Assembly (NCBI GenBank): GCA_029378245.1
Contig: JARKIF010000029.1
Span: 186,001 to 250,000 of the forward strand
DNA from: Roridomyces roridus
Lineage: Eukaryota; Basidiomycota; Agaricomycetes; Agaricales; Mycenaceae
Reading direction: 5' to 3'
DNA length: 64,000 nucleotides
Shown here: positions 1-14,700 of the stretch, in pieces
How positions within the stretch are numbered: the first letter of the stretch is position 1
How the letters are laid out: every line of letters begins with the position of its first letter
Made by a program: the position numbers and the translations under genes
Notes under the pieces: generated by a model
Databases searched by the model: none
Told to the model about the DNA's origin: nothing
The model's input: only the letters and a program-made list of their open reading frames with translations

Positions 1-1320
1 CTTGGAAACATCAGACGATCAAACTCACCCGTACATCCCCACGCTCGGTCACGGCGACCCCAATTACAGTCGACATCCACTCGTAGATTGGTTCAGCAAA
101 CTCCTCCCCAGAAAGGACACCTTGAAGAGCGACTAGCTCAATGATATAGTTTCCATCCTTTTTGGCAGGTTTACTCGCTATGCGGATTTGAGTCGCGATT
201 GGGATTAAAAGACGGACAGCGCACCAGTCCCAGCAAGAATAATAAAGGACTCGTCAGGGTTGGGGATTAGATATCCATTATCTTCGACGACAATGTGGTC
301 GTCTTCTTGCCGGCATTTGGTGTCCGCGAGGTTGGTGTGGAGACCCACAGGCTCCATGCGCTCGCGCCATATAATTCGTGGATTGGTCACGGAGCCAACG
401 TTTGGATGATCCTGGGATGCAATAATTTCTTCGATAGAGCGCCCGTGTCCACGCAATCCCGACGAGTTAATCTGAAATAGCGAGTTAAACTTCATTCTTC
501 TGTACCGTGTGGCAGCATACAAAATGATGTTTCTCGCGGTGCGATGCAACACCACTTTGAGCTTTGCTAGCAGCTTTTGCCGCCCGGAATCGTGCCCGCA
601 GATCTTCAAAGGCAGTAGCAATTGGGGTGTTGGGGTGCATTCTGAGCACGAAATCGATAAGAGCATCGAGCTAAAAATCTATGAGCAGGATGCGAAAGCG
701 ATGAGTTCGTTCGCGCAACTGAGGTGATTTTGGAATGAATTGACTGGACAGATTGGACGAGGCGCGCAGCTTTGGGTCCTTGAGGGTCGAAAGAATAGAG
801 ATTTTGGGCAAGAATTGGGTCGTCGAGAAATGCTTTCGCTGCAGTAGCCATGAGTATGCATCGTCGAAGGGTCCAAGGAGCATAACCTTCTTGCTGGGCC
901 CGCGCTTTAGCTGCACTTTTGTTGTCGACCATGGTGGTTATCGGTGAGATCGTTCCCGTCGTTCCCGTGATGCTCCCGTTGCCTGTCTGCCATGCCCATC
1001 GGATTGCACTGAGCAGAATGAATTCAGGCTGTAAACCGAACGAAAATACATAGAAAACAGAATGAATATCTACATGCATACTTGCCATGGAATGTAGCTG
1101 GCTCGGAGGTCGCGGGTGGTGCACACTGCAGACACTTGTCATAATGAAGGAGAGGCGCATGCATAACGTGAAATAGGCTACAACAGGATTAGACCGACGT
1201 GGGGATCTCCGGCTCCTTGAAGTCGTGCGGGCCAGCAATTCATGACATTGGCAAGAGTTGGTATCATCCGACTGTTCGCAGATGTCAGATCCAGCTGCAA
1301 GCAAAAGACGGGGAGATCTC
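1..1320 (-). other. unresolved intron-rich coding region
   Basis: The minus strand carries several protein-like stretches in different frames, separated by plausible splice signals, so one or two intron-rich genes probably lie here and run off the left edge. The clearest piece reads about 666 down to 205. A GTGCGC donor near 219 can be joined to an acceptor near 173, giving a continuous acidic stretch that includes ELVALQGVLSGEEFAEPIYE and carries on to about position 17. Another piece near 860-700 contains KAFLDDPILAQNLYSFDPQG. I do not recognise the family and could not build one continuous model. The long single-frame run at 606-1322 is partly intronic. Confidence 0.3.
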
Positions 1321-1849
1321 ACCGATACGCCCTCCAGGAATACAGACGTCGGCAGTTTCCCACCTTCGTATCCCGCTCAAACACGTGCCGTGCTCCGCGT
1401 TCCAATAGACGACCTCCGTTTAGGGATGTGGCAAAGATGTAGGAGACGGTGCCGTTGGCATCTCGAGCGCTGGACCAGTTTGCGTCGTTGTCCGTTTCGA
1501 ATATAGTCGAAACGCGCACCGTCTGCGAGCACACGACGATGTCCACGTGCGTGTCAATGTCGTGGCAGATTTAACGGCGAAGAAGCCTTCTTCGTCCATG
1601 ATGACCATCGGCACGGGCCTCTGCGGTTTCGCCGTAAAGGCGGGTTGTGGCGTCTTGAGTGCTGTTGGTAAAGGGTTCCCCGAGTTGCAAACATGAAAGA
1701 CACGCTTAAGCCCTGCCACCTATTCGTGGGGTCTTGCCGATATTCCTGCTCTTGGGAAGAAATGAGCAGCAGAAAAAGAGAAGAAGCGGATGCATACCCT
1801 CGTGGAAGAAGGGTTTGACAGCTTTTCTTGATACCCTTCTTTCCTTTCG

Positions 1850-3168
1850 AGAGGCAATTGTTCTGGGAGAAGGTGAGCACGAGAATGAAGCGACGGCGTG
1901 GCCCGCAAACTCCGCGACCGCGCAATGGCGGCAGCTATGTCTTGCAAGGCAGGGCAAGGGATGATGCTGAAATCGTCAGAATCAAACAAATGATATGCAT
2001 TTCAGATATACCTGGTCCAGAGTGACCCAATCGAGTACACCAGTACATCTCGCGAGCCGAGAGAAGCGATATAATCCGCGTTTGGAGCTCTCAAAACCAT
2101 AGGCGCTCATATATAAGAGGCCTATGCTGGTAACCACCGAATGCGCTCAACAAACTGCAAATTGACGCACGAGATATACGCGACGGAAGCGCCTGGTACT
2201 CTGCATCCTTGGAAGCCGGTTTGAATAGCATATTTCGGCGTTGTGCGGTGTGAGTCTCGCTCATGCCGTCCTCGGGCGACATGGGGAGCTGGGCGCTGCC
2301 TTCTGCAGAGGTTGAAGTCACTGGATGCGAAATTTCGCATTGTCCGACGAGGCGCTCGCCATTCTCGAGCTCCGCAGCGATGGTGACGGTGGGATATGTT
2401 ACGATGACAGGCAGAATGTTCGCCTGCAATTTTTTTCATCAGTCATATCATTCTCCCAGAGATGGAAATGCATACCTGGCTGTTATTAATCGAAGAAAAG
2501 AGAAAGAAGGATGCAGCTAGGGATCGGAAGAATCCTTGAGAGGCGGGAAGGAGGTAGTTTCCGATACTGCGCTTACTGAGCGACAAAAGGGAGGGTACAA
2601 CGTTGATCTCTTACCTGCCATTGACAAATGGAAAGTTTTTGGATGCACGTGTGAGGAGCTCGCTCTCAAAGTGCACAAGGAAGCCGCGGATAGTCTCTTT
2701 ACGGTCTGCTGGAATGCCGTTCCAGAGAGGCGATCGACCTTCAATGATATTCTGCCACTTGTGGCACGCCTCACGCTCAGAGTAACGCCCAGGGAGTCGG
2801 TACGCCAGTAGTGTACGGATGGCATCCAAGGGCAACACGGGCGGCGCCGGAAGGCGTACAGGACGACTTTGTATGTCTCCTATCTGTTTTTAAGTTTGAG
2901 CCTGAGCCCAGACGCGTTCTGGATGGCAGAAACACACCAAAGGTCCGCCTAGAACGCATATTATCTCTGAGGATGACCCAGCATCGTCAGAAACGGGAAG
3001 GACAAAGGAGGCGCCAGGACCAAAAGCTGAACAGATCCCGTTGCCGCCTGTGCCCCCGGAAATGAGAATGAAGCAGGTGGTTTCGTCAGAGTAACCAGAA
3101 GAGCTGGCTGGCTCTGGAAGAGGCTCCCCTGCGGTGTGTCTCCCATAGGCAGCCACCATGTAGCGCAT
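1850..3168 (-). pseudogene. CofD/UPF0052-like (YvcK family) protein, decayed
   Basis: Six exon-like pieces splice into a protein of the UPF0052/CofD-like family, the eukaryotic relatives of 2-phospho-L-lactate transferase CofD and YvcK. The N-terminal loop ISGGTGGNGICSAFG and the segment VLPVSDDAGSSSEII are family signatures. They are followed by GRSPLWNGIPADRKETIRGF, a conserved SIGNYLLPASQGFF segment, ILPVIVTYPTVTIAAELENG and IARSRSLRA. Introns seen: 2884-2937, 2576-2614, 2424-2475 and 1967-2011. Near 2085 the frame of YMSAYG must shift by one base to reach PNADYIASLGSRDVLVYS, and no intron explains this. The family's C-terminal third after SRSLRA is not visible. The family is clear; I infer a pseudogene, though an assembly error at one base cannot be excluded. 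The start (ATG at 3168) is uncertain. Confidence 0.65.
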
Positions 3169-3389
3169 TTGCACCTGGAATGCATCTGTACGTCGGACGA
3201 TACGATCCCGCCGTGTACGCCAGTCCTTTCGTCGAGTGCTGCATGCATGTCAGACACCAGAAAAGAAAAGAGGACGTTGCGACGCACCCTTGTCGATGCT
3301 CCTCCTCGATTCCATCCTCGAGTTGTTGGGCTTCGTCTGGGCTGCTGTCGTTGTCGTCGTTGTCGTTGTTGTCCCCACCTGCGTGACTT

Positions 3390-3790
3390 ATTTGAGCACG
3401 GGTGCCACCATCCAAGATGTTGTCGATTGTCGATATTCCTGAGATGAGAGCGTCTTCGGGGTCAAAATTGTCGTCCTCGAATAATTCGCCGAGGACGCGC
3501 ATCTTGTTACGCGTGGCTTGAGTCATATCTGCCGCTGGGTAAGTACTCTGAGGGGTGTTGGCCAGAAAGCCGTCCTACCCTCCCACTCCTCCTTTCGTTT
3601 TTGCGCCTGCTTTGCCTCATATGCAATGAGAGCGGTCGGTCCAAGGTTCTGGCGCTCGACAACGGCGGGGGTATAGGCGTTCGGTGGGGGCTCGTCGCTG
3701 CCGGTGAGCAAACCATTTGCGTTTCTTGTTGTTGTTTCTGCCCATTCAGGGAACGAGTAGCGGGACTTGACAACGCGTCAACAGCGGCAG
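3390..3790 (-). CDS. fragment of an unrecognised gene, two exon-like pieces
   Basis: Two minus-strand stretches look like genuine coding sequence. One contains NLGPTALIAYEAKQAQKRKE (about 3650-3590). The other contains MRVLGELFEDDNFDPEDALI (about 3500-3440) and runs into an acidic Asp/Asn-rich tail. A splice between them near 3530-3560 is plausible. I do not know the family. It lies just upstream of the CofD-like gene on the same strand and could be its neighbour or an upstream part of a longer model. Confidence 0.25.
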
Positions 3791-3876
3791 GTCATGTGAC
3801 ATGCTGACGTACCTTTCTTCTTTGTTTCTGTCTTTCTCTCATTCCTCCATCGTTTGCGCGGTGACGACCGGTCAAA

Positions 3877-5614
3877 ATGCTCACAGGCAGCAGTAAGTGA
3901 ATCCACTCTTGTTTTCATGCGATGGGACACGACCCTGGCGACCCGGAGCACGCTCGCAAAGAGATCCCTTGCGGAACTTGGCGCGAGCATTCCCTCCCTT
4001 CTGGATTTCACCATTGACTAACACATGCGACACAGGTATACCCCCGCTTCCCCGTCGTCGCCTTCGATCCAACAAGGAGTATTCACCGTTCGACCTGGCC
4101 CTCGGGCTCGCCATTGAGGTACCAGTCTACTTTGACGCAGAGGAGCGGCTGCAATGCTGTATCAAGCAGCGGGTGGAATTGGGGCAGACGCACGAGCCAG
4201 AGGAGGTGGTAATTCCGGGCCTGGAAGCACTGAACCTCTCGGGTGTGTCACAAAGATTCTGCTCTTCGACTTCAATGCTAACATTGTATGACAGCATTTA
4301 TCATTGAAAATTACAGTGTCAATGGTGCAGATGCAAGGCATTAATTCAATGTAGTGGTACACAAGTTTATGCATCTTTTCAGGTTTAGTTCCCAGGTTTT
4401 GCTGGACAGGGAAGTCGACTAGACATGGCAATATGGCCCTGACACAGGTTATAGATGCCTATCACCCAAGGCAAGCATGGGACACAGGTCCTAAAAGTGC
4501 AAGTTGAGACGCAACTCCCAGACGCAGGACACAACTCCCAGACGAGGTCATGTGATTCAATTTTGGATCAGATGTTGATCCAAGATTCTGATACAAGTGA
4601 TGATATGATCACACGTTCCCATGATCTTACATAATCCATGATCAGGTGATATTGAAAAGTGTCGAAAACTCTGAATCGTTGTCCGTCTACTACTGTATCT
4701 TTTTGAGGAGAACAATGGGTAGAGATATAGTGTTTGGAATTTCATTTGATCAATGTGCTGTTACACTAATGAAAGATACTACTTTTGTAATCTCAGTTGC
4801 CTATGTGGTAGAATCTCAAAACATGCCAGAGGCTAGGCTCGTGACCATCCGCGTTCGCCTCACGTGGCTGCGCTTATCACGATCGGCGAAGCGGCTGGGA
4901 CATCTGGTGACCCTTTTGGGTGAGCCAGCGAAACATGAGTTTGGACTTGGCAAAAAAAAGTTGTTTGAGTTTCAAGACCGCGGCAGATGATGCTAGGAAT
5001 GTTGTTGCAGAGGTAGTGGTAACGTTCCCAACGTTATTGGAGCTTTCGGGGACCGTTCCGCTGTCAATTCAGCACTCAGTGGCAAAAGTCAAATTTACCC
5101 TCGAAAAAAAGTTGGTCTCGTTCGACTCAGAATCCAAAAATAAGCGACTTTCTCTATACATGTTTTGACACTTTCTTTTTGAAGGTTCACGAAGAAAATT
5201 TCCTAAGTCCGAACTCATGCTTGGCAGGTCCTGCCAAAATGATGACCAAATATCCCAGTCGTTTTAGGAAGGTTGATCCCTTGCTCGTCTCGTGATCACC
5301 CGACTAAACCCAACTGGTCGCGAGTCTAGCCAGAGGCCAGCAGCAAAAACATGGCCAAATGAGGAAATTTCCAGTTTTAGTATTTCAAATTATCTCCATC
5401 ACATAATTTCCTCATAGAGCCTAATTTGGAAGTCACATGACCTGTGTCTCCAAGTTGCGTCTTAACTTGCCACTTGCGTCTCTGTCTTGTGTCTCAACTT
5501 GAAATCATGTGATCTGCATTTTGGACTTGCGTCAAGCCAAAATAGCCTGACATGTGACCTGCACTTGTGCTCACTATATTGTCTCCGCCTACCACTTGAG
5601 CCAGATATTTTTCA
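3877..5614. other. mostly non-coding; possible short exon and degenerate inverted repeats
   Basis: At about 4070-4245 on the plus strand a protein-like stretch includes SPFDLALGLAIEVPVYFDAE, possibly an exon of an unrecognised gene; I found no complete model. From 4300 onward the sequence turns AT-rich. It holds degenerate inverted repeats: the words AAGTTGAGACGCAACT and GGTCATGTGATT near 4500-4560 recur inverted near 5435-5520, which is the pattern of an old TIR element of about 1 kb. No gene is seen between them. Confidence 0.3.
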
Positions 5615-7215
5615 ATGAAAAATGACTTTATAACATTGACTCTAGATGACATGGAGACCATAACGACCACGAACACGACCACGACCACGACCACGACCAT
5701 GAACACGACCACAACAGGCACAACTAACCCACACTCAGCAAAACGCGCACAGGACAACCTCTCCGCACAGCAGCGTCGCAAAGTCAAGTCCAAATACAAG
5801 CGCTTCGATGACCGCCATGATAAACCCTCCAAATCACCATCCTCCTCACACGCCGCGCTTTCCGCTGCCAAGCATGCCAAGGCAAAGTCTCGGGGCAAAC
5901 GTGGTCGTCAACGGACTCAGGAGGCGTCGGGGGCGGCGGTGCCAAAGGCGATCCACCTCAAACGTGCAGGCCAAAGTCTTTCCTCCGCCATTCATGTCCC
6001 TTACGACGCCACCGACCTTCCGCACAGCAAACCAGGGTGGATTGGCAGCCGCAACGCCAAGCCCCATTCCGATGTCGAGGACGAGCTGAATCCAATTACG
6101 CTTGGGGAGACGGGAATGGGTCCGATGACGTACACGCAAGAGGAGGTCGACAAGCTCGTTGGGCAACGCGGCTTCTTATACATTCCTTGGCTTGGCGTGT
6201 ACGTCGTCCAGCTGTTTCGGCTAGCAGGCCTGATGCTAACAAGGGCGCAGATTAACCATCCCCATCGTTGACTCGAAACGCCGAATCATCGTCCTGCTCG
6301 GAGGACAGCCACGGGACTCTGCTGGATGGAAAATTGTTACCGACGGTACATCGCGTTTGATGGACAACGCCGCCCAACACCTCAACACCTCTGGCTCTGA
6401 CTACGACCATCGACGGGCTGCAGAGCCCTACATTCCAATATTCCGCGGGGTTTCCTTTGGTGGAGGCCAGGAAGTACGTATATGGCCTGTCCTCTCAGCA
6501 AGTCGTATTTACCGTAGTCCCAGGAACCTGGTAATCTCTTCTGCAACGACGCGAACCGCGCAGCGACGGACGAACTCATGGCGCATGAATATTACATCAG
6601 GATTGTCGGCTTCATCATGCGTGAGTCTCTTCCCTTGTTCTGATGCATTTAATCTGACCCATTCTAGTACTTATGTCGATCTACGCTCCACGCCTCCTTG
6701 CACGCTATCAGAAGAACAAGGCAGACATCCTCGCCTGGAACAAAGAGCTCAGTTGGAACTTCGAGAAGAGCTGCTTTGCCGCATGCACCTTCAACTTCGA
6801 GAACGTTGTCACCAGCGTCCACCTCGATTTCGGCAACATGGCGGCGGGTCTCTGCCCAATCACTGCCTTGGGGGATTTTAACCCCGACCACGGCGGGCAC
6901 CTCATCCTATGGGAGCTTAAACTCATCATCCGTTTCCCTCCCGGGTCCACCATCCTCATCCCATCGTCCATTGTCAATCACTCAAACACCCCAATCGGCG
7001 AGAACGAGACTCGCCACTCGTTCACGCAGTACACGGCGGGTGCTTTGTTCCGTTGGGCGGCAAATGGGAACAAGACGGACGATACATTCCTACATACAGC
7101 GAGCGCGGAGCAGAAGGCGCAGAGGGCGGCGGCGGCGGAGACACGATGGGAGGACGGTGTTGCGTACTTTTCGACGTTGGATGAGTTGCAAGAGCTGTAT
7201 GGTTTGGATAAATAG
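5615..7215 (+). CDS. TET/JBP-like 2OG-Fe(II) dioxygenase
   Basis: Four exons (5615-6198, 6251-6473, 6524-6620, 6668-7215) give 483 aa; all introns are 47-60 nt with GT-AG ends. The N-terminal ~190 residues are basic and low in complexity, starting with a Thr-rich run from an ACGACC-type repeat; the ATG at 5699 is an alternative start. The C-terminal half carries a double-stranded beta-helix core: H353-x-D355 in TSVHLDFGN, then PITALGDFNPDHGGHLILWE, FPPGSTILIPSSIVNH with metal ligand H406, and R417 for 2-oxoglutarate. The spacing resembles the TET/JBP nucleic-acid oxygenases, which are expanded in basidiomycetes and often tied to transposons. If so, it would oxidise methylpyrimidines in DNA or RNA in the nucleus. 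The substrate is inferred; another 2OG dioxygenase subfamily is possible. A truncated copy lies 1.3 kb downstream. Confidence 0.65.
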
Positions 7216-7600
7216 ATGAATACATCCTTTCCCTTGGATATTGAGTTTGAAACTGCGGGTTAACGAGCGAGCAAGTCGCCAGCCGACACAGATCGCCGAC
7301 TTACCACGCATATCACCGACTTACCACGGTGCCGAGAAGACCGAATCCATTTCTGCAGCTCGAACGAACTACCTCGGACATGGATCTGAATGCCCGAGAC
7401 AATTTAATGGGCTTCTGTGAGTCCATTTGAATTTTCACCTGATTTTTCCTATGTCTGTAAGAGAATTCTTGAGGGAGGTGCGAAACGAGCCATGAATTGA
7501 CTATGATTCCCGTATATAACTCTGTCTTTACCACCACCCACTCCTTTGCACCACTTTCCCTCACTACTCTCCCTTGACACAACTCTGTCTTCTTTCCTCA

Positions 7601-8288
7601 ATGGGGACCGATTCCCAACGAGCCGCCAAGCAGCGTTACAGAGAGTGGTCCGTCAATCCTTGACAAAAGGCATTTCAGCACTCAAATGGTCTCTTCTAGC
7701 AACCGCGATGCAATTCGTTCCAAGGGCCGGACATATGCTCCCAGCCGTCGAGACAAGCTGCAGCAACAGCCGGACAAGCTCGCAGACGCCAAGGCCGGCC
7801 CCAACAATTATGCAGCATTATACAGGCAGGCGCACCGGGAGGAGCTGGCTCAGAAGGCAATGCTTCGTCGTTGTCGGTGCGTTTCCTGCCTCATCCAATT
7901 GAATAACTACTAACTCTACTCAAGCTTGTCTATTCAAAAGCACGGGTATCCTGCGTGGTACCAGTCATGGAGCGCCCGACATCCTGGTGAAGAGCCTCCC
8001 ATCCCTAGCCCAAACGCACCAAGATTCCCTCCAGCCAACATCACTCCCGACACATCCACCCATCTCTCCTCTTCCATTGACCACGACGAGTCGGGCAGCG
8101 ACGTGGGAAACAACGACATACCGCCGTCATACTCCGCGGACGAATCAGATGGTGGGGTGCAGTACACTGTGGACGCGTGGGGGGGCTGCAACCGCAACCG
8201 CACGCCGGAGGAGCGGCATGCAGTTCGTCGAGCCAGGCTGGAGGAGCTTCATCGGCGCATTCGAATTCGGGAGGGAGCGCTGGCTTGA
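7601..8288 (+). CDS. hypothetical basic/acidic protein, 195 aa
   Basis: Three exons (7601-7647, 7700-7876, 7925-8288) join in frame into a 195-aa protein with no stop until TGA. The N-terminus MGTDSQRAAKQRYRE is basic. The middle has KHGYPAWYQSWSARHPGEEP, followed by an acidic Ser/Asp stretch, and the end is a charged helix-like segment (RTPEERHAVRRARLEELHRR). It resembles lineage-specific agaric proteins of unknown function. It sits between the two dioxygenase copies, and its stop codon is directly followed by sequence in which the second dioxygenase's upstream part is missing. It may therefore have come with the rearrangement that truncated that copy. Function unknown. Confidence 0.55.
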
Positions 8289-8459
8289 CGTACACCGGTC
8301 CCAATTACGCCTAAAATTCAAATTGTTCTCGAAGCTGTCGTTTTCTTCAATGCCTGGACCCACTCGTACGTATTCTATTTGTGCCTTTTCCCGTTGCCAC
8401 CGCAGACTAATCTGCTCTGCTGCCAGATCTGGATCTTGACTCGGTGGAATTGTGTGGGC

Positions 8460-9221
8460 GCACAGCATACGTCGGATGGCGATGTACCCGTACGGTGCGG
8501 GGTTTTCTTTTTCATGCCAGCCTTTCACTCACCCTTACTTTCAGGACCGTTCCAGGCCCTCTGCTACCCCATCTACTCCACCTACTACCGCACCACTCGC
8601 AAACTATGCAAGAAACATCCCGGCTTATGCCGCCTCTTCCCCCATAGCCCCTTCGCCACTCTCACCGCCAACCTCGGCCCCTCCTCCGTCTCTCCCCCCC
8701 ATGCTGACCATGGCAACGTCGCGGACGGCATGTGCCTCATTGGCGCGCTCGGCAATTTCAATGCCGACAAGGGCGGGCATCTTGTGCTGTGGGATTACAA
8801 TCTCATTGTACGCTTCCCGCCCGGGTGCAGTATTCTCATCCCCTCCGCTGTCGTCATGCACTCCAACACCCCCATCCAAGCAGGCGAGGAGCGCTTCTCT
8901 CTCATCCAATATTCGGCAGGCGGGCTCTTTCGTTGGGCGGCGAAGGGCTACAAGTCGGACGCCGCATGGAAGACAACTGCCTCTGAGGAGGATGTTGCAC
9001 ATCGGGAGCAGGAACGCCAAGCACGTTGGGCGACCGCGCTCAAAAAATTCTCGCTGTGGAAGGACGTGAAAGTCAAGAACTACACGGGGCGGGCACGGGT
9101 GGAGGTCTGGGCGGAGGCTGAGGCCGGGGACATCAGTGACCTCACAGACGTCGAGAGTGAGGGGGAGGATGGAGACAGTGAGGAGGAGGAGCCGCTCCCC
9201 AAGAAAATTCATTGTGCATAG
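8460..9221 (+). pseudogene. TET/JBP-like dioxygenase, 5'-truncated second copy
   Basis: A spliced stretch (first exon ending at about 8492, second from about 8544) encodes GPFQALCYPIYSTYYR and then an intact-looking catalytic core: HAD in SPPHADHGNVADG, GGHLVLWDYNLIVRFPPG, SAVVMHSNTPI and RFSLIQYSAGGLFRW. All four predicted active-site residues (H, D, H, R) are kept. It ends with an acidic tail (SDLTDVESEGEDGDSEEEE) that the first copy lacks. The ~300 residues that precede the core in the upstream copy are absent, and the frame is closed by TGA just before 8460. I call it truncated; a short functional protein starting at an ATG near 8469 is the alternative. Confidence 0.5.
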
Positions 9222-9321
9222 TGACAATATTATTTACCAAGGAACAATTTACAGTCAGTATTATTGCAGAGTGATTAGAGGTAGTTAGAGGTGTGTACGG
9301 TGATTCCAAGAAACTGATATG

Positions 9322-9506
9322 ATACAGTATGGTGCAGTGGTGGCAAGAAAGCGATATAATACAGTATGGTGCAGTGGTGGCAAGAAAGCGATATAATACA
9401 GTATGGTGCAGTGGTGGCAAGAAAGCGATATAATACAGTATGGTGCAGTGGTGGCAAGAAAGCGATATAATACAGTATGGTGCAGTGGTGGCAAGAAAGC
9501 GGTATG
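9322..9506. repeat. minisatellite, 37-bp unit x 5
   Basis: Five head-to-tail copies of a 37-bp unit beginning ATACAGTATGGTGCAGTGG start at 9322, 9359, 9396, 9433 and 9470. Only the last has point changes. Degenerate part copies flank the array. It lies just beyond the 3' end of the 454-aa gene. The near identity of the units suggests recent expansion. Open frames across it in several phases arise from the unit and are not genes. Confidence 0.95.
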
Positions 9507-9538
9507 ATACAGTCAGGTTCGGTGATCCCAGTGTGCAA

Positions 9539-11004
9539 CTAGGTAGCGGTGTATGTTTTGAGGAGCTTTTCGCAGTGCTTGAGGTCGCCTTGTTGTAGGC
9601 CGGCTGCGTATCCTTCGGCTCCTGGAGCATTGGATGAAGGTAGTGCAGCATTGAAATGGGTGAGGGGACCACTCTCGCCCCAGAGGTAACAAACACCCTG
9701 ATAGATTTCGTACATTCGCGGGGAATCCGGGTCAGAAGTATCTATACCCTTTAAGGTGAGTAGACGGGGAATAAAGAAGGTAGCTCACCTGTGTTTGCCC
9801 AAATGCGTTTGGCGACGGATTCGGCTCGCTTGTACATCGTTCTTTTGTTGCTGAAGGTAGAACTGTTCCAACCAAAGGTGGTGAGTACACCCTCGGCCGT
9901 CAACACAATATCTCTCCCAATGCCGAGCTTGAACTGGCGGGGTGCCTTGAGGTCGGTCGGATCTAGCCCGAGCCCAGCCAAGACCTGCTCCATAGCATAA
10001 AACGATCGGGCCAGGGCAGGCAGGTTCGTTCCCCGCCTCCCCGCATTCCACGTCGCCTTCGCCTCCAAAGTTTCGAAGCCTGAAACTTGTAGGCGACAAA
10101 GGTCCTTGACCTCGGTCGTCGTAGACTGCCCAGGACTTGCAGCACGGGAGCGAGGATACGGAGCTGGCGAGGTGCTTCTGGAACGGCTACCTCGGGAAGG
10201 GGCTGAAGAGCCCGAAGAGTGGCGGGCAGGGGAGCCCGGGGAATAAATTGGTGACCCTGAAGCAGGGGAGGACGCCGAGAAGTGCATGAAGTTGGTGGTA
10301 TCAAGATTCAGTAGGGAAGAATTGCCCGGGGAAGGGGCCGGATCGAATGTTGCATAGTCGAGTGGGAGCTCGATGGATGGGATGGGCTCCGGATGGCTCG
10401 ATTGGATGTCAAAAATTAGGATGAAGTGCGCCTCGGGCAAAACACCCATGGGTCGCCATATGGAAAAGAATTCCGAGGCCATGGGGTTGGTACTATCTGC
10501 GCTAGCAGCGAGCACATCCGACTTGTCGTCAAATCCGGGGGCAGGAACTATCGACGAGAACGACTGCAAACGACCGATCTGTCGGAAGCCATTTCGCCAG
10601 TGCCTATAGGTCCCTTCACGGAAATCAGGGACCCGGGTGGTTGCTACAAGAACATGGCGGTTGCATGGACCGTCCAGCCCGAGTACTTCCTGAAGTGGTG
10701 GATCGAGGATCATGTCGGGTCGAGATGCGAGGTGGATTTGTGTAGCACAGATGATGCCTAGCGCAGTTGCACAGGCCGTACTCTCCCGCTCAGTAATTAG
10801 GAGGGAAGGGAATGTGACCCCTGCAAAGATCTGTGATATGTCGTCTTGGCCGCGTTGTTTGACGACGAGGTGACAGCAAATTGCTTGAGTCGGTCCAAAA
10901 TCTAGGAAGCTCTGGAATCCTTTCAATTGTTGATCAGCGAGATGAATGAAAGGCAGTCCGGCTGAAGTATTACCTTGCATGAGGCCATCGGCTTCCAGAG
11001 CCAT
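9539..11004 (-). CDS. unknown 454-aa protein, divergent partner of the integrase
   Basis: Exons 11004-10974, 10919-9789 and 9741-9539 give 454 aa. The last intron (9742-9788) is required: it joins KRIWANT to DTSDPDSPRMYEIYQGVCY and leads to TAG. The first intron (10920-10973) has good splice signals but is a multiple of three, so it is less certain. There are two conserved-looking ends: an N-terminal ~190 residues (GPTQAICCHLVVKQRGQDD; SVPDFREGTYRHWRNGF-like), and a C-terminal ~150 residues containing TFGWNSSTFSNKRTMYKRAE. A Ser/Pro/Arg-rich linker joins them. I do not recognise either domain. It is transcribed head-to-head with the integrase gene from a 72-bp interval, which suggests co-regulation and a role in the same mobile unit. 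Confidence 0.7.
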
Positions 11005-11076
11005 GTCTATGGTGGAACAAGAAGAAGGCGAAAAACTGTGATAAACAATTCACCGACCGCCCTTCATGTTTGTTCA
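11005..11076. promoter_or_regulatory. shared bidirectional promoter interval
   Basis: Only 72 bp separate the ATG codons of the two divergent genes, so both core promoters and both 5' leaders must fit here or overlap the genes. I see no clear TATA box. The compactness is unusual compared with other intergenic spaces in the window and supports treating the pair as one unit. Confidence 0.5.
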
Positions 11077-12998
11077 ATGGAACAATTCCAACAGCTCGGT
11101 TCCTTCGTACAAGATGCCCTTCTCAATGCCTTCAGAACACATTACTCCCGCTTCCAGGCTGCAGTCACTGACCTGGTACAAAACCGAGCAGATGCCGTCG
11201 TAATTTCACGGCTTGGGGATGACCTTGACGAATTTGCCAGGATTCTCTCTGAGGTAAGTGGTCGACAATGTGCAGTAGCTTCCTCAGCCTGATACCTGCA
11301 CAGAATGAGACCGTCTTTCATCATGTTCCCGACGAATTTGAAGTTATTCAGACCAGCCTCGTCGCGATGAGGCACGACATTCGCCTCGAGTATCGAGACG
11401 CTGTGGATGCATCTCATCATGGTGTACCCACTCTTGTACAAACCATACCCTCCGACGGGCGTGGCCGGCCCCGAATCCATATCGACCCAGATTTTCTACG
11501 ATGGGCATACGGCCAGCGATCGACCGCCGGTATCAGCAGGTTTCTTGGAGTCAGCAGGACAACTGTCCGGAATGCTCTTCTGGATTTGGGCGTCGTCGAG
11601 CCCCAGCAATCGCCCTTTCCTTTAAATGGCCAGATCACCCCTTCCGAGCCCGAAGCTGCACCAGACGACGACATCCTTGATCCTCAGCTTCCCATCCCCG
11701 ATTCCTTGCCGCCTGATGTCCATGAGCTTTTGGATGATCACACTGGCCCCACCATTTCCTCCTACACCGGGCCTCAGTCCAGCATTTCGGACGACGACCT
11801 CGACACACTGCTTATTCGCTTACGGACCCATTACCGACGTGCAGGTCTCAGCATGCTCAACGGAATGCTCCGTCGGCTGGGGCATCGTGTTTCCACCGAG
11901 CGCGTCCGCCAATCTTTGCTACGCATCGACCCAGTGCGGCGGATTTTCGAGCGCATAAGAATTCGCCGCCGTGAGTACCACGTTCTCGGTCCGAATTCGC
12001 TCTGGCACCATGATGGGCAGCATGGCAAGTGTTCTCATTCCCAATTGAGTTGAGTGCGCGACTGATTGGTTGTAGGCTTGATTCGATGGGGAATTGTTAT
12101 TCACGGTTTTATCGACGGCTATTCACGACTGATTGTTGGTCTCCGCGCGAGTGACAATAACAGAGCCGACACTGTTTTGGAGTTGTTTCTCGACGCTGCC
12201 CGGGTGTACGGCGTACCGTCACGCCTGCGTGGTGATCATGGGACCGAAAATATCTATGTCGCTGCCTGGATGGAGTCCCATCGCGGGCTCCGCCGGGGCT
12301 CGTACATTTGGGGCAGGTGCTTACATGCTTTATTCATCAATTTTATTTCCCTTGTCTCATCGTTTACTTGCAGGAGTGTGCATAATGTTCGTATAGAACG
12401 TCTATGGGTCGACGTCACGGCACAGGTTGGGGCAACTTGGGCTGACCATTTCACCCTTCTCGAGTTGCGATACGGGCTTGACATAAATAATGTCGCCCAT
12501 ATCTGGCTGCTACACTTCCTTTTCCTCGGCACCATCAACACCCAGCTCGCTTTTTTTGCAGAGTCTTGGAACCAGCATCGTATTCAGATGCGTCATTCGA
12601 CCAACCGATCCCCGACTGACATGTTCGTCTTCGACATGTACGCCAACGGTGTCCGTGGAGACCGCCTTCCCCCTGAGGAAGAGGACCTCGCTATCGAGGA
12701 GCTGGAGGTCTATGGGATCGACTGGCAGGGGCTTCGGGAGGATGGTGTGCTCCATTCGCAAGCACAAAACAACTCGGTATCTGAAGGCTCGAGCTCTTGG
12801 GTTGGTAATATCGGGCCTCCTCCTGATCTCAGCCAGGTTGTAGTGCAGCCTCCACCCGGTTTTCTCACTGGCGACGAGGCGGCTCATTTGTATTCTTCAT
12901 TTGCCCCTCTTTTTGGTAGTGCTGACACAAACGAGATCATCTCCCTTTGGACCCACGCACTTACATATGTCCGTGTACTATACCCTAATGAATTTTGA
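11077..12998 (+). CDS. DDE integrase-core protein of a mobile element
   Basis: Four exons (11077-11253, 11304-12024, 12076-12316, 12374-12998) give 587 aa ending in TGA. The intron at 12025-12075 starts with GCAAGT, a GC-AG intron. The N-terminal part has a helix-turn-helix-like segment ([20 protein letters not shown]). The core is an integrase fold: D296 in WHHDGQHG, then [19 protein letters not shown]353 in RGDHGTEN, and E388 in HNVRIERLW, giving a D-x56-D-x34-E spacing close to the retroviral D,D35E pattern. [12 protein letters not shown] and [20 protein letters not shown] follow, as in agaric integrase-core proteins. All three catalytic acids are present. No LTR, reverse transcriptase or zinc-binding HHCC domain is seen, so this is not an ordinary retrotransposon integrase. 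Confidence 0.85.
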
Positions 12999-13640
12999 AT
13001 CCTCTCGGTCGCTTTTTTCTGAATCCCCGGATGACTGAAGTAGTTCTGATGAGAAACCGATGAGAAACCGACCGTGGTTGATCACGGTGTACCGTGGTTG
13101 ACCGTGGTCAACCGTGGTCCAGATGTCCCCTCCGACCTCAAACATCAACCCTCGGAGTGAAACTGATCAAATTACCGACCATTGTTCTGAAAGCTGGACC
13201 AAAAACCTCGTTAACTATGTGTAATGACCTCGGAGTACATGAACTTGATACTCGACCTGCGACCTCGGTGTTCAACCTGTCACAGACTCTCCGACCTCGG
13301 TGCTCCGATCCTCAGAATTCTGCAACCACAATGCTCAAACTCGCAAAATCTTGCGACCTCGGTGCTGAAACTGTACTTTGCACACCGCGCTCATAATATT
13401 CAACGAAAACAACTGTTATAAATACACCACGGCGAAGCGTCGTCTTGGATTACTGAGAGAAGTTGATTGAGCACTCAACAACGCTGTGTGAAAGATTATT
13501 GTAGACTCACTGTACTGCACCGAGATGCCTTCAAATTATTGATGGTCCAGTGAGACTATACGTAGCGTGGAGAAAGGCACGGGAGATGATGCGATGCGAT
13601 CCCTCGAATGCATCCACCACTCTGAATCCGTCGGGCGCGA
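12999..13640. repeat. direct and inverted motif repeats downstream of the integrase gene
   Basis: No gene is seen. At 13070-13120 lies a cluster of ACCGTGG words including the near-palindrome GGTTGACCGTGGTCAACC. Further on, CGACCTCGGTG occurs at about 13260, 13292 and 13354, with weaker versions near 13133 and 13225. Such repeated short words near one side of a transposase gene resemble subterminal binding sites. I could not find a matching inverted set on the far side of the gene pair. Confidence 0.5.
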
Positions 13641-13774
13641 CTTGGGATAACGTTAACGACCGAGCAGACGCGTGATTGCGCCCCTCATCCGTGCGCAAGT
13701 CGTCTTGTCGAGGAGTCCAACAATGCGGTCGACGAGTACCTCGAGGGCCCAGGCCGAGATGGTGGACTTGCGTA

Positions 13775-14585
13775 CTTTCCGCCTCACACGTGCCGCCCGA
13801 TTTAGTAATTTGATGGGGGCAGTGCTTGGCTGTGCATGTTCGGCAGCTGATGGACCAGTGATCAGATCACACGGCAAGAAACCCAAATCGCAATCGCTAA
13901 GTCCTCAAGTCCTCAGACAGCACAATTGTACAAGTACTATATGACACGACAGAGGTAGGGAACAGACGCATAGACATTGAGAACATAAATGATACACGGA
14001 TAACTGTGTAGTGGTAAGTAAGCCGAGGCTCGAGCGTTGCGAATTGGGATGACACACAGCGTGAGAGCCTCGCGCAGCCGTCAACCGGGCATATGTCGCC
14101 ACAGCGAGTGGCTGTGGGCAGGAGATGAGCGAGGGCGTGTGGCGAGATCCGCGGGAAGCGGTGTGACGAGCGAGTGGCCAGGCGGGCGTGCAGGTGAGTG
14201 GTGGTCGGTCCTGTCCTGTCAGAAGGAGGTATCATGGGCGTGGGCGAGTGCAGCGTGCGGGTGTGTGAGCGATGTGGAGGTTGACGTGTGCTGCAACGCC
14301 ATACTACGACGGGCGTGGGCGGAATGCTTGGTGGGCAGGAAGTGGAGCACAAAGCGGCGTGGGCGAGGAAGGAACATGATGCGAGGCCGCTTATGGGAGA
14401 GAGGGAGAGCAAATGCGAGAGTCTACGAGGGCGGTGGGGCCGGCGATGAGCAGGGCGAGGAAGGTGGTGAGGTGAGAGGGACTCCCAGACATGATGTGAT
14501 TGACGGCCGAAGAAACTGCCGAGAGCACTGCCCCACACTGCCCCCATCAAATTACTAAATCGGGCGGCACGTGTGAGGCGGAAAG
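13775..14585. mobile_element. 811-bp segment bounded by a perfect 50-bp inverted repeat
   Basis: The 50 bases at 13775-13824 are identical to the reverse complement of 14536-14585, including the word CCGATTTAGTAATTTGATGG. Perfect identity over 50 bp means the arms formed recently or are kept by selection or conversion. The 711 bp between them are G-rich on the plus strand and contain no recognisable gene; the long minus-strand frame there is low in complexity. I saw no clear target-site duplication outside the arms. Confidence 0.7.
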
Positions 14586-14700
14586 TCAGGAGTGAGATGG
14601 TGGTCGAGAGGAAGAGCGAATGTCCGATCAACGGATCAATGCAGCGGCTGACTCATGATTTAGTCGTGACTCACTCTTCTCGCAATCGCACCTCGGACTC

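Follow-up and report, generated by a model that had tools for sequence, protein, structure and literature searches.

A divergent integrase gene and its undescribed partner at the right end of an 18.5-kb, probably IS3EU-type transposon of Roridomyces roridus

Two divergent genes at positions 9539-12998 of the analysed stretch of Roridomyces roridus DNA, one encoding a DDE integrase and the other an undescribed protein (here called the partner), make up the right-hand end of a transposon of 18.5 kb, most likely of the IS3EU superfamily, in which the partner likely acts as an accessory transposition factor. The stretch, referred to as the window, comprises 64,000 nt (C212:186001-250000, where C numbers denote contigs of this genome), and it was compared with the whole R. 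roridus genome (90.8 Mb, 501 contigs); element coordinates below 1 lie to the left of the window start and were read from C212. An earlier note on this DNA had suggested that the compact gene pair is itself a mobile unit. Mobility is borne out, but the unit measures 11.6-18.5 kb, carries further genes and leaves the window leftward. The features on which the argument rests are as follows.

1-13420, plus strand: portion of the transposon inside the window, out of a full element spanning C212:180922-199420 (18,499 bp, window -5078 to 13420)
C212:180922-180941, outside the window: left terminal inverted repeat, TATGACCTTTTTTATCGTTG
13401-13420, minus strand: right terminal inverted repeat, TATAACAGTTGTTTTCGTTG read inwards
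13421-13426: AATACA, the 6-bp target-site duplication, on the right side; the left copy is C212:180916-180921
13226-13362, plus strand: four subterminal GACCTCGG words, candidate transposase-binding sites
9539-11004, minus strand: partner gene, three exons, 454 amino acids, undescribed family, Ser/Pro-rich linker
11005-11076: divergent intergenic region, 72 bp between the start codons, presumed shared promoter
11077-12998, plus strand: DDE integrase/transposase gene, four exons, 587 amino acids, D296, D353 and E388 intact

Ends, copies and target duplications

The 18,499-bp element starts with the left repeat given above and ends with CAACGAAAACAACTGTTATA (termini TATGAC...GTTATA), and its inverted repeat is imperfect, 21 of the 29 terminal bases matching between the two ends. 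The copy on C334 is 98.7-99.2% identical to that on C212 from C212:180922 to window position 13420, a nested insert excepted, after which homology stops, and homology with the C135 copy ends at the same right end, position 13420. Both copies are bordered on either side by a 6-bp duplication of their own, AACATC for C334 (17.2 kb) and TGCTAC for C135 (16.3 kb). Contig C17 runs from C212:180919 to window position 13423 without the element, with a few bases differing at the junction; its flanks are 97-99% identical to those of C212, but only 87% over the first 343 bp at the right, and it looks like an insertion-free allele of the C212 site. Searching with the separate ends recovered nine loci in which both ends stand 1.8-4.4 kb apart, together with C451, which has the left end alone, and eight of the nine shorter copies bear exact 6-bp duplications (C279 has none).

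A second lineage was delimited around a diverged partner match at C1:2369295. This element, designated Z (C1:2360882-2372442, 11,561 bp), has the ends TATGACAGCATTTATCGTTG and TGACTTTATA (TATGAC...CTTTATA) and the duplications CCCACC/CCCACT, and its genes follow the same order and orientation as in C212: HECT-like, Tet-like, partner and integrase. The insert nested in the window copy belongs to this lineage.

4287-5632, plus strand: nested non-autonomous Z-lineage element, 1.35 kb, with Z ends save one base

It is flanked by the duplication ACATTG (4281-4286 and 5633-5638), and C334 preserves the exact empty site. At least 28 genome matches start at its left end (4283-4287) among the 38 of 216 candidates that were scored, and nine of ten short Z-type copies read at both ends have exact duplications, C57 having none. 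Taking both lineages together, 21 of the 24 copies checked carry an exact 6-bp duplication, one a duplication matching at five of six bases and two none. A scan for the end motif allowing up to five mismatches returned 24 matches against 26 in one shuffle, which is chance level beyond the four exact ones; one weak match (L036, four mismatches) is the right end of Z.

The termini, the duplications, the insertion-free allele and the presence of copies at different sites show, on genome comparison, that the element has moved, and the alignment of copies that the earlier note had proposed as a check thus yielded both termini and a short target duplication in many copies. The repeated short words that it had reported downstream of the genes are also present. 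The GACCTCGG word occurs four times in the last 200 bp and not at the left end, and ACCTCGG reaches 9.5 per kb in the last 422 bp as against 0.29 per kb in mid-element.

The integrase, the partner and the gene module across the genome

The integrase is encoded by exons 11077-11253, 11304-12024 (with a GC donor), 12076-12316 and 12374-12998, which join into a single open frame with the catalytic residues D296, D353 and E388 where they had been placed before; an intact DDE triad is also expected of an IS3EU transposase. Its core matches the Pfam families rva_4 (PF24764, E 1.2e-66) and, weakly, rve (E 9.1e-08), and Pfam gave no zinc-finger family ahead of the core. No reverse transcriptase was detected among the 22 proteins and open reading frame pieces scanned (some overlapping; part of all frames), and the element ends are inverted rather than direct repeats, in agreement with the reported lack of a reverse transcriptase and of long terminal repeats. 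Genome-wide, the integrase exon has 39 matches and rva_4 has 74, at 40 loci; 22 of these loci were read as DNA, and the other 18 were covered by genome-wide protein searches alone. In a tree of 22 integrase loci, from which C480 was left out and in which Z was placed without its core, the six partner-bearing loci form one clade (support 0.98). The integrase of Z (C1:2369k) lacks residues 289-460, hence its catalytic core, and that of C480, as aligned, lacks part of the core.

The partner gene starts with an ATG at 11004 and stops at 9539, with introns at 10920-10973 (54 bp) and 9742-9788 (47 bp), so that after splicing it is intact, as had been claimed along with the 72-bp distance between the start codons. 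Searches of public proteins, in which the best candidates, about 8000, were scored, gave P0001, P0002 and P0005, assigned to C334, C135 and C212, and in addition two partner homologues, P0003 and P0004, located on other contigs (9.4 and 7.3 kb). The public model of the C334 partner copy, P0001, has 472 amino acids and reads through the 54-bp intron; read in this way, the partner is identical to R. roridus FB45DRAFT_863018 at all but one of 472 residues (471 of 472). In the C135 copy that intron contains an in-frame stop codon, for which reason the 454-residue reading appears to be the better model. The description of the protein as unrecognised holds: it has no match to any Pfam family, Myb/SANT included, and a five-sequence profile found no match among solved structures. 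A profile comparison with the HECT family returned a probability of 0.4%; the idea that the N-terminal half is RNase H-like was unsupported and was dropped. The C-terminal half contains, by eye, a conserved basic stretch that is helical in the prediction, at low confidence.

For the partner, comparison of C212 with C135 gives dS 0.70, dN 0.145 and a ratio of nonsynonymous to synonymous rates (dN/dS) of 0.21 over 444 codons, and for the integrase dS 0.064 and dN/dS 0.13 over 587 codons; these ratios indicate that both genes are under purifying selection. Against the Z copy of the partner the synonymous sites are saturated and give no ratio. Because dS is tenfold apart in genes separated by 72 bp, and because identity between C212 and C135 steps near 10957 from about 73% (partner) to at least 92% (integrase) in neighbouring 250-bp windows, the comparison indicates recombination of partner and integrase modules from one element to another, near the presumed shared promoter.

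The genome search for the partner gave seven matches at seven loci (C212, C334, C135, C1:2369k, C1:1810k, C412 and C480:529k); three of them are weak (E 7e-5 to 3e-4), and further exons confirmed each. At all seven the partner adjoins an integrase, five times head to head and twice in tandem, and no copy away from an integrase was found. The expectation that the partner would always be divergent to the integrase therefore stood in this genome for adjacency but not for orientation. In the diverged lineages the partner retains 24-39% identity to the window copy. The tandem loci, X (C1:1810k) and Y (C412), are 96-98% alike; their element ends were not found, and the homology between them breaks off within the HECT gene. 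Six of the seven partner loci, all except C480, are also the six loci found with the HECT-like gene, and the Tet-like search recovered the C212, C334, C135 and Z copies plus a partial match (39 amino acids) on C138. Sixteen other integrase loci (8-10 kb each) gave no partner, HECT-like, Tet-like or TET/JBP-like match (tblastn, E<=1e-3); these, L012-L017 and L019-L028, represent other integrase lineages of the rva_4 loci.

Cargo genes and neighbouring repeats

The gene in the left part of the element is predicted to encode a HECT-type E3 ligase. Folding of P0005 (a public model of 502 amino acids covering part of the gene) gave a bilobal HECT fold over about 350-370 residues, resembling UBR5, HUWE1 and Rsp5, and Cys446 of P0005 is nearly invariant in 19 sequences, in a C-terminal T/S-C-F/Y context that we take to be the one expected of the HECT catalytic cysteine. 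Relatives of the protein occur in nine Mycena species. Predicted fold and conserved C-terminal cysteine liken it to these ligases, whereas an identity of about 10%, the lack of a Pfam match and its place in a transposon set it apart. The oxygenase gene in the left part is weakly Tet-like, and two further pieces lie to the right.

8457-9221, plus strand: TET/JBP-like oxygenase piece (PF12851 E 2e-05, below cut-off; CcTet E 0.013, weak)
6658-7215, plus strand: second TET/JBP-like piece (PF12851 E 0.0023, below cut-off)

The two pieces are 52% identical to each other, and sequences related to them stand at other places in the genome, on C157, C105 and C323. The first, which was probably captured, is common to the C334 and C135 copies (94% DNA identity in C135); the second was not found in the C135 copy and has a 100% match in C480. 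More broadly, the segment 3110-8454 minus the nested copy is 98-100% identical to C480:575092-579085 and was not found in the C135 copy, which holds about 4.4 kb of other sequence at that place; no 5-8-bp duplication was found at the segment borders. The middle of the element thus seems to exchange cargo, as far as these alignments indicate.

Just downstream of the partner gene, 9307-9513 is a tandem array of 5.6 copies of a 37-bp unit, and the C334 alignment over the half of the element with this array is 37 bp longer, about one unit. Beyond the right end, 13766-14594 is a multi-copy element of about 829 bp with inverted ends and a 9-10-bp duplication, absent from C17, which we take from its duplication length to be Mutator-like. 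On its right flank (L009:6921-8382) the C334 element directly abuts a 1.46-kb repeat, of which there are many copies of 97-98% identity.

Class of the element and role of the partner

IS3EU elements are marked by TA..TA ends and usually by 6-bp duplications, according to the consulted parts of PMC10045372. Since TA..TA termini occur in both lineages studied here and exact 6-bp duplications in most copies, IS3EU is the most likely superfamily for the element, as assigned by ends and duplication length; because these fit a superfamily already described, the class is not a new one. With IS3EU/GingerRoot elements, as that source in part presents them, the element shares these termini, duplications, a DDE transposase and, by Pfam, the lack of a zinc-finger family ahead of the core, and it differs in having the partner, a HECT-type ligase, a Tet-like oxygenase and a length of up to 18.5 kb (PMC10045372). 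Rusts and Tuber indicum have TET+ IS3EU transposons, in which an alpha-kinase gene lies opposite the transposase (Kojima 2025, PMC12730594, consulted in part). They have in common with our element the IS3EU-type ends and duplications and, as far as matches below cut-off allow, a TET/JBP-like gene piece inside, but here a HECT-type gene is present and no alpha-kinase was found nearby (none of 21 genome matches to PF02816 lies within 20 kb of the 40 rva_4 loci). The rust elements further have TAYGG..CCRTA ends with inverted repeats longer than 30 bp, in contrast to TATGAC..GTTATA with 21 of 29 bases agreeing here, and the portion consulted does not list IS3EU among the agaric TET+ lineages (PMC12730594). 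HECT and ubiquitin do not occur in the main text of PMC12730594, and a literature search, with Repbase and most subscription journals outside it, found no HECT gene in an IS3EU element and no such element of R. roridus or Mycena. As a working comparison for the partner, Nuwa (PIF/Harbinger) also has a second protein beside the transposase, in its case a Myb/SANT protein; its transposase belongs to another family, its duplications are 3 bp, and our partner protein does not match Myb/SANT (the Nuwa data being from the same part of PMC12730594).

The partner likely helps the element to move or to survive, and transposition could proceed along the following lines: (i) the integrase would bind the subterminal GACCTCGG words as well as the inverted ends; (ii) it would cut at the TA ends and join them to target strands six bases apart, a staggered 6-bp cut; (iii) the partner, with the shared 72-bp region driving its expression, would likely bind DNA or the integrase, its basic C-terminal stretch being the sole hint of this; (iv) the HECT-type ligase may target the transposase or a host factor for degradation; and (v) the Tet-like and TET/JBP-like oxygenases may strip methyl marks off the element and so counter silencing.

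Several points weigh against this account. Its weakest step would be the role of the partner, a protein with no recognised fold or domain: the structure prediction suggested earlier was run, but the AlphaFold2 model (four sequences) is unusable, with a mean predicted local distance difference test (pLDDT) score of 44, and the best Foldseek match to it (E 0.17) is noise, so that no fold emerged that would point directly to DNA binding. Thirty-four of the 40 rva_4 loci have no detectable partner, and integrases of the family would therefore not generally depend on one; the shorter copies without the partner gene are evidence of action in trans at most, if of any. From the difference in dS between the two genes, one integrase type would work with, or tolerate, quite different partners, and with X and Y arranged in tandem, not every pair can share a divergent promoter. 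The integrases of Z and C480, two of the seven, cannot be active, judging by their missing core residues. As to the cargo, Foldseek superpositions on HECT structures are loose (best TM-score 0.45) and sequence profiles alone, Pfam included, give no HECT family for the left-hand gene; the Tet-like gene matches PF20515 with E 0.002 (one exon) or 0.012 (joined pieces), below cut-off, and its Z homologue has no PF20515 match. The shorter lineage-1 copy C279 and the Z-type copy C57 lack a duplication, and the IS3EU class, most likely as it is, is assigned from ends and duplication length.

Other readings of the pair differ widely in probability. It is possible, if tentatively so, that the partner is an anti-silencing or host-manipulating passenger that aids persistence and is dispensable for cutting and joining; this would suit its travelling with HECT-like and Tet-like genes, the many partnerless rva_4 loci and its exchange between elements independently of the integrase. 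Yet it adjoins the integrase at every locus, including C480, where no HECT-like gene was found nearby, and in lineage 1 its head-to-head spacing with the integrase is tight. We hold it rather doubtful that the element represents an IS3-like branch of multi-gene elements, combining a two-protein recombinase, a HECT ligase and a demethylase-type oxygenase, with the partner swapped like a specificity subunit.

Chance carriage of a captured host gene is improbable as an origin of the partner: the TET/JBP-like pieces, with their relatives elsewhere, do look captured, but the partner itself was found nowhere in this genome apart from an integrase, persists in lineages as diverged as those described above and evolves at a dN/dS well below one (0.21). 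An equally slim chance attaches to a Polinton/Maverick or Ginger-type transposon instead of IS3EU. Polintons use an rve-type integrase, have AG..CT termini and carry a protein-primed DNA polymerase. The weak rve match of the integrase would fit them, but the termini here are TA..TA, the stated IS3EU mark, and no DNA polymerase or capsid family was found among the scanned pieces. The 6-bp duplications are found in Polintons too, whereas those of Ginger measure 4-5 bp (PMC10045372, consulted in part). Segmental duplication or an assembly artefact as the origin of the boundaries has practically no probability and is refuted by the target duplications, for although C17 and C212 look like two haplotypes and some copies may thus be alleles, C212, C334 and C135 differ in their exact duplications and flanks, 17 of the 19 shorter copies have exact duplications and clean empty sites exist.

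To conclude, if the pair is indeed part of an IS3EU-type transposon with an accessory partner, bonnet mushrooms would harbour a large family of this type with apparently young copies (two are about 99% identical at different sites, and one insertion is absent from the apparent other haplotype), and with it an unnamed protein family, a ubiquitin ligase borne by the transposon, and oxygenases possibly able to counter DNA methylation. Were the multi-gene, IS3-like reading true, the element would attack both host protein control and chromatin control while moving. The exact ends and the short copies defined here provide a basis for a transposition assay, and the element offers a case in which the escape of a transposon from fungal silencing may be tested gene by gene.

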